A DNA stretch of 64,000 bases from Modestobacter excelsi (GTDB lineage Bacteria; Actinomycetota; Actinomycetes; Mycobacteriales; Geodermatophilaceae): the NCBI RefSeq assembly GCF_005930495.1, contig NZ_SJEX01000001.1, forward strand, positions 124,001 to 188,000, given 5' to 3'. Positions 6,042-14,807 of this stretch are shown here, one piece after another. The notes beneath the pieces were generated by a model. The model was not told the DNA's origin. It did no database searches and was given only the letters and a program-made list of their open reading frames with translations. How positions within the stretch are numbered: the stretch's first letter is position 1; each line of letters starts with the position of its first letter. The position numbers and the translations under genes were made by a program.

Positions 6042-9017
6042 GTGACCATCTTTTTCTACGTGACTCCTCATGGCTTCCACCAGAGCGCCTTGAATGCCGT
6101 TGCGGACCGGTCCGGCCTCGCCGGTCGAACCGTCGAGTGCGCCCGTGTCGATGACGCGCTCGATCGCGCTCAAGGTGGCCATAGCAGCGTTCTCGTCCTG
6201 CGCGGCGAGGCAGGCATCGGCAAGACAGCTGTCCTGGACCGCGCCGTCGATCGTGCCGCAAACTTCAGGGTCATTCGGATCAGTGCGATCGAGTGCGAAG
6301 CGGACCTTCCCTACGCGGGCTTGCAATTGCTGTCCAGCGCCATGGAAGACGCCGTGGGCCGCCTGGAGCCTCAGCAGCGACGGGCTCTTGAGACCGCTGT
6401 CGGATCGGGCGGCGGTGAGCCGGACCGGTTGCTCCTCGGGTTGGCAGTTCGTTCGCTGTTCGAGAAGGTCGCCGGCCCCCGACCCCTGCTCTGCGTCATC
6501 GACGACGCCCAGTGGCTCGACCGGTATTCGGCGCAGGTGCTGGCCTTCGTCATTCGGCGCCTCCGGGCGGATCCGATCGCCGTCCTCATCGCTGAGGGAG
6601 ATCCCCAGAAAGTGTGGGAGTTCGACGGTCTCCCTGCGCTTCGGCTGGTGGAGCTGTCCCACTCCGATGCGCGGACGTTGGTGCGTTCGCTGATCCGCGG
6701 GCGCGTGGACGAGGCCGTGATCGATCGAGTCATTGCCGAAGCGCGTGGCGTCCCTCAGGCGTTGCTGGACGCGGCGCACGGCTTCACCTCGGCGGGGCGC
6801 GCCGGTGGGTTCGCAGTCGACACTCCAGCCCTGCTCGCAGCCGGCCGGCTGCAGGAGGTCTTGGAACGGTTCCACGCGTCAGCGGACGACAGTCGTCGCC
6901 TGGCGCTGCTGGCGGCCGCTGATCCCACTGGTGATCCGGCGTTGCTGTGGCGTGCCGCCGCGACGCTCGCACTACCGCCCCAGGCGGCTGCGCCGCTCGA
7001 GTCGGATGGTCTCGTGCATGTGGGCTCACGCGTGCTCTTCTGTGACACGGCGTTGCGGTCAGCCGTCTACCACTCGGCATCGGCCGGAGACCGGCGAGCG
7101 GTCCACGAGGCGCTCGCCATCGCGACAGATTCCACATCGGCACCCGATCGGCGAGCCTGGCACTTGGCCTACGCGGCCGACGCGCCGGACGACGAACTCG
7201 CGGCGGAGTTGGAGCGCTGTTCGCCGAAGGCTGGCGAACGGGGAGGACCGGCCGCTGCGGCTGCATTCCTGGAGTTGGCCACCCTGATGACCCGCGACTC
7301 TGCGCGTCGCTCCCAGCGGGCGCTTGCCGCCGCCGCGGCGACACTCGATGCCGGTGCCACCGACGCGGCGTCTCGGCTGCTCGCCACCGCCGAGCTCGGC
7401 ACTCTTGACGCATTCGGTCATGGTGGTCTGGCCCGCCTGCGTGCACAGGTCGCATCCATCTCCCGACGCGGCGACGAGTCATCCGAACTCTTTCTCGACG
7501 TCGCACGAATGTGGGAAGGACTCGATGCATCCGTTGCCCGGGACACGTATGTGGATGCGCTGGCCGCGGCCGTCGCGGCCGGTCGACTCGGGCGTCGCGG
7601 CGTGGAGGCCGTGGCGAAGGCGGTCAACGGAGGACAGCCGGCGGACCCCCGGGCGAATGACCTGCTGCTCGACGGACTCGTCGTCCGATTCACCAAGGGG
7701 CATGGGGCGGCTCACGTTCCCTTGAGTGGCGCCCTTGAGGCATGGGGCCGAGACGGCATCGGCGGTTCCGCCCTCTCGCTGTGGCTGGCCACCACCGTCG
7801 CGGCCGACCTCTGGGACGACGAGGCCTGGCATGTGCTGACAGCAGTTGGACTGGCACGTGCGGAGGACACCGGTTCTCGCACGGTGCTCCTCTGTGCGCT
7901 GGCATGCCGCGCGATGGTCGACGTGCACCGTGGCGAACTCCGTGCGGCTAGCGCTCTCGTCGAGGAGGCGCTTGCCCTAGCGCATGCTTCGGGCAACCCT
8001 CCGATCGCCCACGCCTCCCTGGTACTGGCGGGGTGGTCGGGAGAGGAGCATCGCGCTCTAGCCCTCTTCGACGCCGCGCGTAGGGACGCCGGTTTCCGTG
8101 GCGATGGGTACACGCTCAGTACAGCCAGCCTCGCGGAGGCCGTCTTGTACAACGGCCTCGGTCGCTATGACGCTGCACTGGCTGCGGCGTGGCACGCCGC
8201 CGAACTGGATGAGCTGGGCTTGTCCGGGCTCGGCTTGGTAGAGCTGATTGAAGCGGCGACACGCAGCGGAAGGCATGACGCCGCCGTGGGCGCGGTAGAG
8301 CGTTTGACCGATTCCGCCCGTGCCTCCGGCACAGACTGGGCATTGGGGATGGAGGCGCGGTCGAGAGCCCTGGTGACCGATGGTCAAGGGGCCGAGAAGC
8401 TCTACGAAGAAGCCATCGACCGGCTGGCGAGGTCACGTATCACGGTCCACCGAGCCCGCGCCCAACTGCTATACGGCGAGTGGTTGCGGCGTCAGGGTCG
8501 GCGCATCGATGCCCGAGTGCAGCTGCGAGCCGCCGAGGAGTCCTTCGTGGCGATGGGCGCCGAGGCGTTTGCTGTCCGGGCCAGGCGAGAGAACTCAGCC
8601 ACGGGGGAGAAGGTGCGCCGTCGAGGAGATACGGCTGGGAACCTCACCCCGCAGGAGGCCCGCATCGCGTTTCTGGCTTGCGACGGCCTGACGAATCCGG
8701 AGATAGGTGAGCAGCTGTTCGTCAGCCCCCGCACGGTTGAATACCACCTGCACAAGGTCTTCGAGAAGTTCGGCATCACATCGCGGCGGGAACTGCCACG
8801 CCTGCTGGACAACACCGTGAGCATTTCTTCTGGACGATTTCTGCCAGCCCCCCATGCCCGCAACCCCCGACTTCGCGGGCGTCTCGATGTTGCCGGGTTC
8901 TCAACTGAACGACGGACGAACGTCCCGACCCCGCGCGACGCGTCCGAGGTGCGGTCCGTCGGCGTAGACGCCGAGGGGTGCCCGGCACCCGAGTCCGCCG
9001 CGGGGACGCCCCGGTAG
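6042..9017 (+). CDS. Large ATP-binding LuxR-family (LAL) transcriptional regulator
   Basis: 991 residues, same architecture as the LAL gene at 1071-3848. The P-loop GEAGIGKT is at 55-62 and Walker B LLCVIDDAQWLD near 149-160. A TPR-like middle follows, then a LuxR helix-turn-helix at about 868-918 (FVSPRTVEYHLHKVF). The two proteins share many segments, for example RDSARRSQRALAAAAATLDA here against a close match in the other, so they are paralogues. The GTG at 6042 gives a longer N-terminus than usual; GTG at 6060 is an alternative. About 70 low-complexity residues follow the helix-turn-helix, which is unusual because this domain normally ends the protein. That points to a lost stop codon or recent extension. 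Confidence 0.9.
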   Translation: MTIFFYVTPHGFHQSALNAVADRSGLAGRTVECARVDDALDRAQGGHSSVLVLRGEAGIGKTAVLDRAVDRAANFRVIRISAIECEADLPYAGLQLLSSAMEDAVGRLEPQQRRALETAVGSGGGEPDRLLLGLAVRSLFEKVAGPRPLLCVIDDAQWLDRYSAQVLAFVIRRLRADPIAVLIAEGDPQKVWEFDGLPALRLVELSHSDARTLVRSLIRGRVDEAVIDRVIAEARGVPQALLDAAHGFTSAGRAGGFAVDTPALLAAGRLQEVLERFHASADDSRRLALLAAADPTGDPALLWRAAATLALPPQAAAPLESDGLVHVGSRVLFCDTALRSAVYHSASAGDRRAVHEALAIATDSTSAPDRRAWHLAYAADAPDDELAAELERCSPKAGERGGPAAAAAFLELATLMTRDSARRSQRALAAAAATLDAGATDAASRLLATAELGTLDAFGHGGLARLRAQVASISRRGDESSELFLDVARMWEGLDASVARDTYVDALAAAVAAGRLGRRGVEAVAKAVNGGQPADPRANDLLLDGLVVRFTKGHGAAHVPLSGALEAWGRDGIGGSALSLWLATTVAADLWDDEAWHVLTAVGLARAEDTGSRTVLLCALACRAMVDVHRGELRAASALVEEALALAHASGNPPIAHASLVLAGWSGEEHRALALFDAARRDAGFRGDGYTLSTASLAEAVLYNGLGRYDAALAAAWHAAELDELGLSGLGLVELIEAATRSGRHDAAVGAVERLTDSARASGTDWALGMEARSRALVTDGQGAEKLYEEAIDRLARSRITVHRARAQLLYGEWLRRQGRRIDARVQLRAAEESFVAMGAEAFAVRARRENSATGEKVRRRGDTAGNLTPQEARIAFLACDGLTNPEIGEQLFVSPRTVEYHLHKVFEKFGITSRRELPRLLDNTVSISSGRFLPAPHARNPRLRGRLDVAGFSTERRTNVPTPRDASEVRSVGVDAEGCPAPESAAGTPR

Positions 9018-9917
9018 CCGATCAGGAGCTGCTGCAGTGGCTGGTCCGTCGACGACCTTGCCCCTGGGCGGGCAGGCTGTGGTCGACGCTCGCGGCCAGG
9101 GATCACGATGAGACCGACTCCGCCATCCGCGCAGTCAGTCGTGGCTAGCCTCAGCATCGCGGCCCTCAGGTGTGGTCGTCGCCGTGGGCAGCAGGCAGTG
9201 CCTGACGGGACTGGCTAGACGTGAGGAAGTAGCCGGCCGTCGCGCTCTCTGCGGTCACCGCTGGACGCACACGGCGCAGGACGTCGCGGGTCGGGGACGG
9301 AGCGAATACAGCAAGCGGTACCGCAACGCGCCTCGAAGGACGACGGACCGAAGCATTCGCAGGTCAGAGCCCGTTTGCGGCAAAGCAGGAACGTCTATTC
9401 TGTCGCGCGACCGCTCGACCACCATTAGCCGACCTCAAGTGGCTCAGGACGGTGCCCCGAGTGATCACGGCATCGGGAAAGACGTGTCCGTAGACGTTGC
9501 CGGTGAGGGGCCCGGCTGAGCTCCTCGGCGGCGCGGTCGGCCGGCACTTGACCCCAAGTGCATCGCCGCGCGAGCTCCGAGGCTCTGTGAAGGCGAGCCG
9601 CAGCTGCGGAGGAGCACGACGCGCTGTTCGTCGTCGGAAGGCATCCCGGTGGGATCAGCGAGCTCCTCCATCGGGCGACCGCCGGCTCGGTCTCCCGGCG
9701 GCTTCCTGGCCGGTGTGCCCGGCCGGTCCTGCTGGTCCCCTTCCGCTGACCACGTCGTCCCCCGAACCGTCCACAGTGATCATCGCGAGTTGAGTGCGGT
9801 TGCGCGGGCGCCAGGACTGCGAGCCGCTCGCGGGGCCGGTGAAGACCCTGGCCACGGTCGCGGCGCTCACTCGCGAGGGTGCCGACGCCTGCTGCTCCTG
9901 ATCCGTCATGGAGGTGC
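9018..9917. other. Non-coding gap with possible decayed sequence
   Basis: About 900 bases with no gene I can defend. The minus strand near 9480-9530 reads LTGNVYGHVFPDAVITR in one frame, which resembles the tyrosine region of a phage-type integrase. The frame around it is not open far enough to call a gene. The region may be eroded mobile DNA. Confidence 0.3.
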
Positions 9918-9956: not shown

Positions 9957-10463
9957 ATGACGACGACGGCCGAGCGCGGACTCCGGATCGCGGAACTGGC
10001 GCGGGCGGTCGGCGTACCGAGGGACACGGTCCGCTACTACGAGCGCGTCGGGCTGCTGCCCCCGCCGAAGCGGACGCCGGGGGGCTACCGGGACTACGAC
10101 GTGGGCGCTGTCGACCGGCTGCAGTTCATCCAGGGTTCGCAGCGGCTGGGACTGCGACTGGTCGACATCGGCCACCTGCTCGCCGTCCGGGACACCGGAC
10201 GATGCCCGTGTGAGCCGGCGGGGGAACTGCTCCGCCGTCGTCTGGCCGACGTCGACGCCCAGCTCGCCCGCCTCACCGCCCTGCGCGCGGAGATGGCCGC
10301 CATGGCCGCCGCCTTACCGCAGGCCGAGTGCCCCGACCCCACGCCCGGCACGTGGTGCCCACCGGAGGAGAGGGAGGTGATTGCCCATGTTCGAGCTGAC
10401 ATGTCCCTGCGACCCGGACTGGACCGACTGCGAGTGCAGCAACGGTTGCTGCTGAGCGAGTAG
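9957..10463 (+). CDS. MerR-family heavy-metal-responsive regulator
   Basis: 168 residues from the ATG at 9957. The N-terminal winged helix reads RIAELARAVGVPRDTVRYYE followed by RVGLLPPPKRTPGGYRDY, typical of metal-sensing MerR proteins, and a dimerisation helix follows. Candidate metal ligands are Cys83 and Cys85 (GRCPCEP), Cys125 and Cys134 (ECPDPTPGTWCPP). It should bind the dyad at 9921-9942 and activate by twisting the promoter. No metal transporter or reductase follows; the only downstream partner is the nested Cys-rich peptide. The last 25 or so residues look unlike the family and coincide with that nested gene. The metal (Zn, Cd, Pb, Hg or other) cannot be decided. Confidence 0.9.
   Translation: MTTTAERGLRIAELARAVGVPRDTVRYYERVGLLPPPKRTPGGYRDYDVGAVDRLQFIQGSQRLGLRLVDIGHLLAVRDTGRCPCEPAGELLRRRLADVDAQLARLTALRAEMAAMAAALPQAECPDPTPGTWCPPEEREVIAHVRADMSLRPGLDRLRVQQRLLLSE
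10373..10380 (+). promoter_or_regulatory. Perfect Shine-Dalgarno inside merR
   Basis: GGAGGTGA is an exact eight-base complement to the 3' end of 16S rRNA and sits 6 bases before the ATG at 10387. It lies inside the merR reading frame, where such a site would not be kept by the protein sequence alone. It is the main evidence for the nested gene. Confidence 0.85.
10387..10455 (+). CDS. Six-cysteine microprotein nested in merR (metallothionein-like)
   Basis: A 22-residue frame beginning MFELTCPCDPDW and ending in CSNGCC. Cysteines are at 6, 8, 15, 17, 21 and 22, giving CxC, CxC and a terminal CC pair; it is also acidic with a single Trp. It lies in the +1 frame wholly inside the 3' end of merR and has the perfect ribosome binding site at 10373-10380. 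Short Cys-dense peptides commonly bind soft metals, and co-transcription with a metal-sensing regulator fits a chelator, buffer or metal donor. That role is inference; I do not recognise a named family. It is too short for ordinary gene callers. Confidence 0.7.
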   Translation: MFELTCPCDPDWTDCECSNGCC

Positions 10464-10811
10464 CTCCGACTCCGTGTCGAGAACGGCCATCGTCGGGACG
10501 GTGACCGACAGGTCAGGGATGGCCGTCCCTGCCGGTCGGATCGGAGCAATCGCGACACATAGCAACGTCAACACATGACGCCGGGTACTCGACGAAGCAT
10601 GCCTGGCGCCTGACGCTATAAACGTCGGCATCGTCCAACAGCTCGGTCGGGGCCATTCCGCAGATAAACGACGCTCCATCAACCAGCCAGTTCCAACACT
10701 TGAATCAGAACGGCACGCATGCTACCAATGGAGGTAGCTCGAGCCCCGCTTTGCGGGGCTCTTCGTCGTTGTTGGGGTGACATGTTGGCCATTGTTGGGC
10801 GGCGTTGACGA
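10464..10811. other. Intergenic region before the relaxase; possible oriT
   Basis: About 350 bases without a gene. It contains the terminator hairpin at 10741-10761, then two copies of TTGTTGGG at 10769-10776 and 10792-10799, 23 bases apart and just before the relaxase. Relaxase genes of this type often sit next to their origin of transfer, so the repeats are a candidate oriT. No obvious copy of the tRNA 3' end was found here. Confidence 0.35.
10741..10761 (+). terminator. Rho-independent terminator
   Basis: GAGCCCCGC and GCGGGGCTC form a 9-bp perfect stem with a TTT loop, followed by a T-rich tail (TTCGTCGTTGTT). Orientation favours termination of rightward transcripts, either the merR/microprotein message or something entering the mobile element. 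Confidence 0.7.
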
Positions 10812-13800
10812 ATGCACGGCGGGATGAAGGTGTACGCGGGTGCACCTGCCGCTGCCCGCCACTATGTCGAGTCCGGGCGCGGCCGGGCCGATGACTACTA
10901 CTTGACCGAGGGGACCGATGTTGCTCGCCGCTTCACCGCAGCCGGCGGGCGGGTGGAGGAACTCGCGCCGCTGACCGGGGACGGCTACGAGGCGTGGGTC
11001 GCGGGGGTGGATCCCGAGACTGCGGCGCCGTGGGGGCGGCTGCGGGAGGACGACCGGGCGGTGCGGTTCGTCGAGGTGGTGGTCAACGGCCCGAAGTCGT
11101 GGTCCCTGGCAGCAGCGCTGCACCCGGACATCGCCGAGGCATACGACGCGGCACAGGATCGCGCCGCCGAGCAGATTGTCGGCTGGCTCGGCGAGCACGC
11201 CACCACTCGGGTCGGGCCCCGAGGCGGACAGGTGCAGGTGCCCGTCGAAGCTCTGCACGCGGTGACGGTGCGGCACTGCACCTCCCGTGCGGGAGACCCC
11301 CATCGACATCTGCACCTGCAGATCAACGCCCGAGTGTTCGCAGCCGGGAAATGGCGCGGGCTGCACACCGTCGGCGTCCGGGATTCGCTGGCCGCGATCA
11401 ACGGGATCGGCCATGCAGCGGTCGCCACCGACCCACATCTCCGGGCCGCACTCGCGGCCCATGGATACGCCTTGGATGGTTCCGGAGAAATACTGCAGCT
11501 TGCCGAGTACGTGGGCCCGTTCAGTGCCCGCACCGTGCAGATTGCGCGAAACATGGGACATTATGAACGGGAATGGAGGCAGGTGAACCCTGGCGAACAA
11601 CCCGGCCCGGCGTTGCACCGGAGATGGGACGCGCGTGCGTGGGCCGAGGACCGCCCCGACAAGGGGCGCCGGCGACCGGCGGCGAACGTCACCGCCCGGT
11701 GGCTCGCTGAGCTCAGGGCCCTTGGATATCGCGACCGCGACATCGCGATGGCATTGACGCCGGCTCCGATCGGCGGGCTGGACCGCGACGCCGTGGCGCA
11801 GGACGTCCTCACCAGGTTGGCGGTGTCCAGGTCGGCCTGGAACGCCGCCGACATCCGCGGTGAGGTCGAGCAGACTGTCGCCGGGCAGGGCATCGTCGCC
11901 GACGCCGCCGTCCGCATCGAGCTGGCCGAGGACCTAACCGCCCGGTCCCTGGACCGCTGCGTGCCGCTGCTCCTCCAGGCCGGCGTGCTTCCCGCTGTGC
12001 CCGATCACATCCGTGCCTGGACGTCTCAGCCGGTGCTCGATGTGGAGGCCGAGCTGACTGACCGGCTCGCGGCCCGCACCCTCTCCCGCGAGACCGACAC
12101 CGCCGGTATCCGGCCGGCGGTTCTGCCCGCCCAGCGGCTGGACGCCGATCAGGCGGACGCGGTCACCGCGCTCGCCGGCGGAAAGCCGCTGGTCGTGATC
12201 GAGGGCGCGGCCGGCGCCGGCAAAACCACCACCCTCGCGGCCACCCGGCGTCTGCTCGAGGAGCAGGGCCGCGGCCTGATCGTTGTGACTCCGACGCTGA
12301 AAGCCGCGAAGGTGGCCCGGGCGGAGGTGGGCACAGCCGCGGGCTCGGTGGCGTGGCTGGTGTTCCAGCACGGCTGGCGTTGGACCGAGGACGGCACCTG
12401 GACCCGCCTCGCCGCCGGCGAGGCCGACCCGGTCACCGGCGCTCTCTACGCCGGACCGGGGGCCAGCGCGCGCCTGTGCCGCGGGGATCTGCTCGTGGTC
12501 GATGAGGCCGGCATGCTTGACCAGGACACTGCCCGCGCCCTGCTCACCGTCGCCGACGAGTGCCAGGTGCGCCTCGCGCTACTCGGTGACCGGCATCAGC
12601 TGGCCGCGGTCGGCCGCGGCGGCGTCCTCGACCTCGCCGCCCGCGCCGTCGATCCGACCGCCCACCTGACACTGGAGACGGTGCACCGCTTCACCCGAAC
12701 CGAGGGCACCGGCGTCACCCTTCCGGACCGCGAGTACGCGGACCTGACCCGGGCCATGCGCACCGGGGAGGATGCGGGCGCGGTGTTCGACGCCCTGCTC
12801 GCGCGCGGCCAGGTCCGGCTGCATGCTGCCCAGGGCGCGCTGACCGAGGCGTTGGCCGGCACGGCAGCCGCCTCCTACGCCGAAGGCGTGCGCGTGGCGG
12901 TGGTGGTGGACACCCGCGAGCAGGTCGCCGAACTCAACGCTGCGATTCGCGAACGGCTGGTCACCGCCGGCCGCATCCAGGACAGCACAGTCGTGACCAC
13001 GCGCGCCGGGCAGCGGATCGGCGTGGGGGACTGGATCACCACCCGCCGCAACGACCGTGACCTGGACGTCGCGAATCGTGACACCTGGACCGTCGGCGGG
13101 GTCGGCGGTGACGGAGAACTCGTTGTCACCCCCGTCGATGTCACCCCGACCGCCCGTGGTCGGGGAAGTGTCACCCCGGCCGCGGCACGACAGCGGGTGC
13201 TGCCGGCGGGGTACGTCACCGCGCAGGTTGAGCTGGCCTATGCCAGTACCGCTCACGGCGTCCAGGGGGACACCGTCCCGGCAGCGCACGTGGTGATCGG
13301 CGAGCGCACCGGCGCCGCGTCTGCCTACGTCGGGATGACCCGCGGCCGCCAGAAGAACACCGCCCACCTGGTCGCTGCCGACGTCGCGGATGCCCGGGAG
13401 CAGTGGATCGCCGTGTTCGCCCGTGACCGGGCCGACCTCGGCCCCGCGCATGCCGCCGAACTCGCCGCGCGGGAGGCCGCCCGGTACGTCCCCACCCGAC
13501 CGCTCGAGCAGGTCCTCGCCGACCTGCACGAAGCGTGGACGGCTGAGCAACACGCCGAGCTCCGGCTTGCCATCACCCAGCCGCTGCGCGACCGGCTGCG
13601 GCAGCTCGTGGAACTCGGCGGGAACCCCGTCCAACGTTTGGAAGGCCGACTCGCACGAGAACGGCAGGCGGGGCGGAACGTCGACCACGCCGACCGGCAG
13701 GTGCGCGCGGTCGAGGTGATCTTGCGTGGCGACGCCGACCGCATTCGCCAGCAGCTCATCGACGCCTGGGACGGTCAACGCGACGGCGCCTCCCAGGCAG

Positions 13801-14438
13801 CGGCGGTGGTGCTCCAAGGAGCCGGCCGGTTGGGGCAGCGGCGGCGGGCGGTTACCCGGGCCGGCGAGGAGCTCACCGAGTGGGCCGACATCTGGCGGCC
13901 CTACCTCCCCGACCTGCCCGCTGACCCTCGGGCGATCGCCGAGCATGCCGATTCGTTCGATGACCGCGCAGCACTGTGGAGGGCATTTGACGACGCCGCC
14001 CGCCGAGGCGCAGAGGGGGCCCATCCTGAGCAAGCCGCCCTGCGCAGCGCCGCGGCCACCGCCCGGAACGCCCACGCGCGAGCCACGCGGGCCCGCGGTG
14101 AGGGCCGACGCGAGCGGGACGAGATGGTTGCCCGCTTTGGCCGGGTGGCCCACACGCCGGATCCGGCCGCAAAGCTGGTTGAAGTCGACCGGGAGATCAC
14201 CGCCGCCGGCTGCGACCTGGCCGCAACCCGGGCACGCATCGAGCACCTCACGGGCGAGCCTGCCTTCCGCGGCCAGCCGCCGGACCGGATCGTGCGAGAG
14301 CGCGACGCCTGGCGGGCACGCCGCGACGCCGACCGCAACCGCGACCGGCATTCTCCGGGCACCCCGCGGCCGCCCGACCCGTACGTGCTCGACCGCTCCC
14401 GGTCCGCCGGCCGTTCCGGCCCCGGCCTCGGGAGATGA
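10812..14438 (+). CDS. MobF-family relaxase/helicase (TrwC/TraA-like)
   Basis: 1208 residues. The N-terminal TrwC relaxase domain has tyrosines at 29-30 (RADDYY) as likely nicking residues and a metal-binding HUH cluster HRHLH with His164, 166 and 168. The C-terminal half is a RecD-like superfamily 1 helicase with P-loop GAAGAGKT at about 465-472 and Walker B DLLVVDEAG. An Arg/Ala-rich helical tail follows. It would nick oriT, stay covalently on the DNA and unwind it for conjugation. ATG at 10824 (MKVYAG) is an alternative start. No FtsK-type or type IV secretion genes are nearby, so transfer would depend on another element. Confidence 0.92.
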   Translation: MHGGMKVYAGAPAAARHYVESGRGRADDYYLTEGTDVARRFTAAGGRVEELAPLTGDGYEAWVAGVDPETAAPWGRLREDDRAVRFVEVVVNGPKSWSLAAALHPDIAEAYDAAQDRAAEQIVGWLGEHATTRVGPRGGQVQVPVEALHAVTVRHCTSRAGDPHRHLHLQINARVFAAGKWRGLHTVGVRDSLAAINGIGHAAVATDPHLRAALAAHGYALDGSGEILQLAEYVGPFSARTVQIARNMGHYEREWRQVNPGEQPGPALHRRWDARAWAEDRPDKGRRRPAANVTARWLAELRALGYRDRDIAMALTPAPIGGLDRDAVAQDVLTRLAVSRSAWNAADIRGEVEQTVAGQGIVADAAVRIELAEDLTARSLDRCVPLLLQAGVLPAVPDHIRAWTSQPVLDVEAELTDRLAARTLSRETDTAGIRPAVLPAQRLDADQADAVTALAGGKPLVVIEGAAGAGKTTTLAATRRLLEEQGRGLIVVTPTLKAAKVARAEVGTAAGSVAWLVFQHGWRWTEDGTWTRLAAGEADPVTGALYAGPGASARLCRGDLLVVDEAGMLDQDTARALLTVADECQVRLALLGDRHQLAAVGRGGVLDLAARAVDPTAHLTLETVHRFTRTEGTGVTLPDREYADLTRAMRTGEDAGAVFDALLARGQVRLHAAQGALTEALAGTAAASYAEGVRVAVVVDTREQVAELNAAIRERLVTAGRIQDSTVVTTRAGQRIGVGDWITTRRNDRDLDVANRDTWTVGGVGGDGELVVTPVDVTPTARGRGSVTPAAARQRVLPAGYVTAQVELAYASTAHGVQGDTVPAAHVVIGERTGAASAYVGMTRGRQKNTAHLVAADVADAREQWIAVFARDRADLGPAHAAELAAREAARYVPTRPLEQVLADLHEAWTAEQHAELRLAITQPLRDRLRQLVELGGNPVQRLEGRLARERQAGRNVDHADRQVRAVEVILRGDADRIRQQLIDAWDGQRDGASQAAAVVLQGAGRLGQRRRAVTRAGEELTEWADIWRPYLPDLPADPRAIAEHADSFDDRAALWRAFDDAARRGAEGAHPEQAALRSAAATARNAHARATRARGEGRRERDEMVARFGRVAHTPDPAAKLVEVDREITAAGCDLAATRARIEHLTGEPAFRGQPPDRIVRERDAWRARRDADRNRDRHSPGTPRPPDPYVLDRSRSAGRSGPGLGR

Positions 14439-14597: not shown

Positions 14598-14807
14598 ATG
14601 CCCGAACCGGTCACCGGCCACGAGAGCGAACTGCTCACCATCACCGAAGCAGCCGACCTCCTGCGCACCCCGGTGGCCACCCTTCGGTACTGGGGGCATC
14701 GCAACATCGGCCCGCACAGCTTCCGGCTCGGCCGCCGCGTGCTCTACCGCCGCGACGACCTCCAGAGGTGGATCGACGCGAAAGCAGGCCAGATCCGTGT
14801 GCGCTGA
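14598..14807 (+). CDS. xis: Excisionase-type helix-turn-helix protein
   Basis: 69 residues with a MerR-like/HTH_17 winged helix: TITEAADLLRTPVATLRYW, then GPHSFRLGRRVLYRRDDLQR. This compact fold is typical of excisionases of actinobacterial integrative elements, which bend DNA at attachment sites and steer the integrase toward excision. It sits between the relaxase and the integrase, as expected. Its stop overlaps the next gene by 11 bases, so the two are translationally coupled. Confidence 0.82.
   Translation: MPEPVTGHESELLTITEAADLLRTPVATLRYWGHRNIGPHSFRLGRRVLYRRDDLQRWIDAKAGQIRVR

Follow-up and report, generated by a model that had tools for sequence, protein, structure and literature searches.

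A cysteine-rich micro-ORF at the 3' end of merR in Modestobacter excelsi as a probable member of a merR-coupled, metallothionein-like microprotein family

Introduction

Bacterial metallothioneins are usually about 50 amino acids or more in length. That a shorter peptide can bind metal is known from the copper metallothionein of Neurospora, of about 25 residues and 7 Cys, which is eukaryotic and has a gene context unrelated to the merR-linked arrangement described here. For actinobacteria, metallothioneins were reportedly predicted by Schmidt et al. 2010 on the basis of sequence (cited in PMC4531530); these predictions share with our peptides the phylum and the small, Cys-rich character.

In the review PMC12193353, the bacterial metallothioneins SmtA, PmtA and MymT appear as small, Cys-rich proteins with CxC and CC motifs and a metal-responsive regulator, all traits shared by the microproteins reported below; the latter differ in their length (16–32 aa), in being paired with a MerR rather than with SmtB and in matching no Pfam or NCBIfam family. 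In Pseudomonas aeruginosa, CadR activates the small protein Zrd, which has been likened to metallothioneins by its authors and whose zinc-ribbon domains are predicted to hold only mononuclear sites (PMC12301328). The likeness lies in a MerR-family metal sensor switching on a small protein; unlike Zrd as portrayed there, the peptide described here belongs to no known family and overlaps merR itself. An open-access literature search, restricted to the best matches and with most subscription papers falling outside it, returned no work on merR-linked Cys-rich microproteins. Within this scope, bacterial metallothioneins and the CadR-driven Zrd are the nearest described ideas.

Results

The micro-ORF and its locus

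The window, i.e., the whole stretch of 64,000 nucleotides that was analysed, contains the following features around merR:

9817..9901, forward strand: relic of an arsR 3' end (..GPVKTLATVAALTREGADACCS, stop at 9899-9901), the gene being complete in the sister locus L002
9817..10545, forward strand: segment of about 730 bp common to the window and to G000:C111 (L002), aligned at 93% identity
9918..9949, forward strand: MerR-type promoter/operator, with a -35 TTGACC, a perfect dyad ACCTTGGAC-TTGG-GTCCAAGGT overlapping the 20-bp spacer and a -10 CAGGCT
9957..10463, forward strand: merR ORF, 168 aa (Pfam MerR_1, MerR, MerR-DNA-bind)
10361..10399, forward strand: what is left of the ancestral C-terminal end of merR (..EGGDCPCSS, stop at 10397-10399), still readable in the shifted frame
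10373..10380, forward strand: Shine-Dalgarno GGAGGTGA, 6 nt before the micro-ORF ATG
10387..10455, forward strand: Cys-rich micro-ORF, 22 aa, MFELTCPCDPDWTDCECSNGCC plus stop, with counterparts at the merR 3' ends of relatives
10503..10539, forward strand: hairpin resembling a terminator, 3' of the micro-ORF (dG -24.5, z -2.8)

An earlier note on this DNA had described a six-Cys, 22-residue frame within the merR 3' end, preceded at six bases by an exact Shine-Dalgarno, and both were found as described. The peptide MFELTCPCDPDWTDCECSNGCC carries CxC, CxC and a terminal CC, and its frame reads +1 relative to the enclosing merR ORF, which ends at 10463. When both strands of the window were scanned for SD-preceded ORFs of 14–40 aa containing five or more Cys and a Cys share of 20% or higher, this was the sole strict pass, and dinucleotide shuffling of the merR 3' region gave a passing ORF in 0/200 shuffles.

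The merR tail overlapping the frame had been considered unlike the family. It is indeed odd, since one base is missing from the GGAGGAGGAGGG stretch, as shown by three-way alignment of the window with the sister locus L002 and with the same-genus locus L011. The 1-bp deletion falls near 10364-10377, the residues after about position 138 are a frameshifted tail, and the C-terminus of the relatives can still be read in the shifted frame. As window merR lost one base, its reading frame crosses the micro gene; the nesting is, on this alignment, a derived local frameshift or else an assembly error.

The sister L002 is a second merR-micro copy of the same genome, placed on another contig, and the remainder of its 3066 bp, outside the shared segment, had no match anywhere in the window. 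Its merR ends with PPEEEGGECACSS, 13 nt inside its micro-ORF MLQLTCPCDPDCTDCECSSGCC. Polarising the merR changes with L011 assigned 6 synonymous and 4 nonsynonymous changes to the window and 6 and 2, respectively, to the sister. The two micro-ORFs differ by 4 nonsynonymous and 1 synonymous changes, a relaxed pattern, and Trp stands in the window at a site where the sister has Cys. With its arsR relic, its frameshift and one Cys lost, the window merR-micro looks like a partly decayed duplicate. Two other decayed units were observed: L039, where merR is frameshifted and the micro-ORF intact, and L109, which has lost both the merR 3' end and the micro-ORF and has a second copy in its genome.

A gene for a large AAA_16/LuxR-type regulator lies upstream of the arsR relic (6042-9017). 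Just downstream of the unit, a gene for a TrwC-type relaxase/helicase (10812-14438; PF08751, AAA_30) and an HTH_17 gene (14598-14807) are found, and the window merR-micro looks like it adjoins a mobile element.

Distribution of the merR-linked micro-ORF

Searching with the 22 residues alone retrieved, within the family, only same-genus loci, with three more genomes among 112; the sister copy and three same-genus homologues are all standalone 24-codon frames. The weak peptide matches L003 and L004-L010, the latter from seven further genomes within the phylum, were taken as chance because no related MerR occurs within the stretches examined. A MerR alignment of five rows (four found through the microprotein, the fifth being the window) led to 19 named loci, and in all 19 a small Cys-rich ORF stands at the 3' end of merR. 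L021 and L026 among them duplicate loci that the microprotein had already retrieved, and the set covers Modestobacter, Geodermatophilus, a Geodermatophilaceae MAG, Nocardioidaceae MAGs, Georgenia, Tetrasphaera, Citricoccus, Knoellia and Arthrobacter.

These loci were pooled with those of the class, family and plasmid searches, same-contig repeats being dropped, and the 40 MerRs with A2-profile scores of more than 150 bits were taken as the close set. A micro-ORF is carried by 37 of these 40, as a separate ORF in 35, nested in the window and fused in L046 (the peptides of L089 and L090, both included, are identical), and is absent in L109, L041 and L043. Under a strict test, asking for an SD, at least 5 Cys and a start at most 40 nt from the merR stop, 33/39 close MerRs (L090 omitted; failures L032, L036, L046, L109, L041 and L043) passed versus 0/39 distant MerRs, with a shuffle expectation of 0.00 in both sets. 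The distant set comprised the weaker matches with loci retrieved (24/39 and 10/30) together with L108, L044 and the own-genome L016-L018, close and distant being split by MerR score alone; by a looser rule one of the 39 passes (L017, with a 40-aa Cys-containing frame).

A phylum draw of 396 genomes yielded 12 further loci, all outside the class by listed kinship. Nine have the micro-ORF, either separate (eight loci, of which three bear a tandem pair) or fused (L124), and three (L118, L119 and L120) lack it. No further loci were added by a class draw of 394 genomes, and at E <=1e-42 the MerR clade is sparse, being present in 14/396 phylum and 6/394 class genomes. A Cys-rich counterpart at the merR 3' end thus occurs in 46/52 related MerR loci across Actinomycetota (43 separate ORFs, 2 in-frame fusions and the nested window copy). 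Some members of the family have only 5–6 Cys.

In the relatives, the merR stop falls either within the beginning of the micro-ORF or just ahead of it: by the called starts, the overlap does not exceed 13 nt in 30 of the 35 separate micro-ORFs and reaches 38 nt in the most extreme case (L033). Only the window copy, among the 52 loci, is nested in another frame wholly inside merR. The nested layout is therefore not what is conserved, and the note's reading of it is not supported. Its remark that no described family was known to it is supported in so far as Pfam and NCBIfam returned no family for seven microproteins (the window peptide and six relatives) at E up to 10, HMMER filters dropping most matches above about 0.1.

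Several individual loci deserve description. By eye, merR is followed in L118 by an overlapping thioredoxin- or glutaredoxin-like frame instead of a microprotein, and in L120 by an NAD-epimerase-like frame; in L119 a 19-aa frame with two Cys follows. In L115, L121 and L122, merR is followed by a tandem of two unlike Cys-rich micro-ORFs, one belonging to the recurrent CPCCGCPCGDCGG type, and a CPCCGCPCGDCGG-type micro-ORF is also present in L132, with no related MerR on the short stretch examined. L046 and L124 are natural in-frame fusions of a Cys-rich sequence to the MerR C-terminus. As for plasmids, querying them with a 27-residue member gave no match, the plasmid matches examined were H1, H2, H4 and H18 out of 40 listed, and the incomplete gene table of the Rhodococcus plasmid record L042 lists no gene at the micro-ORF position. 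Among viral sequences, MerR retrieved a single weak relative (L040).

Selection on the micro frame

Codon substitution was compared in all frames over nine pairs of hand-picked near relatives of equal length, with no member shared between pairs. pN/pS was 0.21 in the micro frame (bootstrap 0.12-0.35) versus 2.19 and 1.24 in the other two; for the codons past the merR stop, the values were 0.17 versus 2.98 and 1.05. This set replaced an earlier pool of 10 hand-picked equal-length pairs (window included, L002 used twice), which had given 0.225. Cys residues were identical at 61/63 sites and other residues at 102/126 (Fisher p 0.003). The micro frame is under purifying selection in the family, and the 22-residue frame at 10387-10455 is a real gene. 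The earlier suggestion that selection keeps the nested gene and not the regulator is partly supported: the microprotein gene is selected in the family, where merR is kept as well, and it is the window copy that shows relaxed change.

Regulator, promoter and hairpin

The MerR HTH and MerR-DNA-bind domains are present (Pfam PF13411, PF00376 and PF09278 above cut-offs). Against TIGR02051 (Hg MerR) and TIGR02047 (CadR-PbrR) the sister MerR reached 95.2 of 150.85 and 85.3 of 151.45 bits, and the window MerR 91.8 and 80.9 bits, thus below both cut-offs in either case. Putative sensor Cys are C83, C85 and C125, invariant among 20 sequences, and C134, kept in at least 90% of them; C85 aligns with a Cys of PDB 4ua1, 6jgf and 5crl (MerR, CadR) and is a putative ligand. 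The clade resembles the metal-sensing MerRs (Hg MerR, CadR-PbrR) in its MerR domains, its aligned Cys and its long dyad-bearing spacer. It differs from Hg MerR and CadR-PbrR in a CPC motif and a CPxPxPGTWC loop and, unlike in known metal-sensing MerRs, the promoter enters merR itself, with the microprotein behind.

In the family, the promoter consists of TTGACC, a dyad such as CTTGGAGTnnACTCCAAG within a 20-bp spacer, and TAnnnT, compared with which the -10 of the window is weaker; this is the layout of the MerR class, a promoter with a 19–20 bp spacer that holds the operator dyad. The window merR ATG lies 7 nt downstream of the promoter element, and in loci read by eye merR starts 6-8 nt after the -10, from which we infer a nearly leaderless merR mRNA. 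The strict promoter-operator pattern was found forward before merR in 28/40 close loci and in 12/12 loci of the phylum draw (overall, 40/52 forward and 2/52 reversed) and in 0/39 distant MerRs. It was missed in 10 of the 40 close loci, eight of which show a TTGAC-plus-dyad variant; in L038 and L091 no promoter-dyad variant was visible by eye. The same forward promoter is present in L118, L119 and L120, yet without the micro-ORF. In the plasmid relatives L041 and L043, the operator is reversed, a divergent cation P-type ATPase gene is present and there is no micro-ORF. The own genome contains only two operator sites when up to 3 mismatches are allowed; both precede a merR-micro unit, and each matches on either strand. 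Since the MerR-type promoter reads into merR, merR and the micro-ORF form a self-regulated unit, as the note had maintained, and no transporter lies between promoter and hairpin.

The hairpin is stronger in the sister (dG -34.5). Over 36 loci, hairpins 3' of the micro-ORF have a mean z of -1.97, with values below -1.5 in only 18 of the 36.

Neighbouring genes

Flanking genes vary (MFS, alcohol dehydrogenase, flavoprotein, universal stress protein, aquaporin, SBF symporter), and a single transporter partner, sought among them, was not found. One locus with the micro-ORF, L036, does have genes for CsoR and an HMA P-type ATPase nearby. Ars-type genes, sought with ArsR, ArsC, ACR3 or flavoprotein seeds within about 1.5 kb, accompany 20/40 close versus 2/39 distant MerR loci, the window being counted by its arsR relic; an ArsR or ArsC match alone is no proof of an arsenic role, and the 20 loci are not independent because 15 belong to one family, the Geodermatophilaceae. 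As ars-type neighbours are frequent, arsenite is a candidate ligand of the merR-micro unit.

Discussion

The unit is characterised by its tie to a single MerR clade, a promoter-operator that is conserved and directed into merR, SD sites, purifying selection and retention of Cys, and its peptides combine small size with at least 20% Cys in CxC/CC clusters, as metallothioneins do. We consider it likely that the window frame is a copy of a merR-coupled, metallothionein-like family of metal-sequestering microproteins of about 16–32 residues, encoded in merR-led self-regulated units, and that the Cys-rich microprotein probably traps metal.

Activation of its promoter by metal-bound MerR is the known mode of this regulator type. 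Here, a soft metal or metalloid would bind the MerR dimer through Cys 83/85, 125 and 134, and the metal-bound form would distort the 20-bp spacer and turn on the near-leaderless merR-micro mRNA. The micro-ORF would be translated both from its own SD and by coupling across the merR overlap; the peptide would then sequester the metal, so that free metal falls and the switch resets. It may, in this role, stand in for the efflux ATPase that the two related plasmid MerRs L041 and L043 face. The sequestration step is what we infer from the composition, the placement of the operator and the swap with the ATPase.

A different role, in which the peptide is a partner of MerR and, as a metallochaperone or feedback inhibitor, hands metal over to the sensor or strips it off, would agree with the tight pairing with one MerR clade, the overlap or coupling, the natural MerR fusions and the few metal ions that 16–32 residues hold. 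We regard it as unlikely: the change of operator orientation, which swaps the micro-ORF with a P-type ATPase, suggests an effector role, the non-Cys sequence varies, whereas a protein interface would be conserved, and tandem copies of the micro-ORF exist.

Polycysteine attenuation is known from leaderless short ORFs in mycobacteria, and dense Cys codons followed in some loci by hairpins might recall those comparable ORFs, making the frame a cis-acting sensor of charged Cys-tRNA. This is very improbable here. The micro-ORF follows merR instead of lying in a leader of attenuated genes and is mostly the last Cys-rich frame before the hairpin or another gene; the nine downstream neighbours scanned are of eight unlike kinds, with 8/9 on the other strand; and non-Cys residues are largely kept as well. 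Hardly more credible is a gene nested in merR as a layout kept by selection, which is true of the window copy as sequenced and is contradicted by the lack of any other wholly nested locus among the 52, the mostly short overlaps and the 1-bp deletion in the three-way alignment. That the frame is open by chance in GC-rich DNA and yields no product is strongly disfavoured: although the frame is very short, the window copy differs from its sister mainly at nonsynonymous positions and the distant L017 has a Cys-containing frame under the loose rule, this reading has against it the strict test on close and distant MerRs, the frame-specific purifying selection and the two fusions of a Cys tail to MerR in frame.

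The metal-sequestering microprotein is thus the reading we retain. A wider form of it would see a phylum-wide family, as yet without a name, that comprises the smallest metallothioneins of bacteria and forms a gene-encoded equivalent of the phytochelatins, tied to one MerR clade, tuned to arsenite and replacing efflux as the MerR output; this we put forward as a tentative and rather doubtful possibility.

If the proposed explanation is true, a widespread class of metal-handling microproteins has probably been missed by gene finders, because its members are very short and overlap merR. The unit would represent a minimal sensor-plus-sponge circuit under one promoter, and the use of one operator for a pump in some loci and for a peptide in others would offer a natural comparison. 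The natural MerR fusions would be useful for structural work, and the smallest number of residues with which a bacterial metallothionein can work would become open to test.
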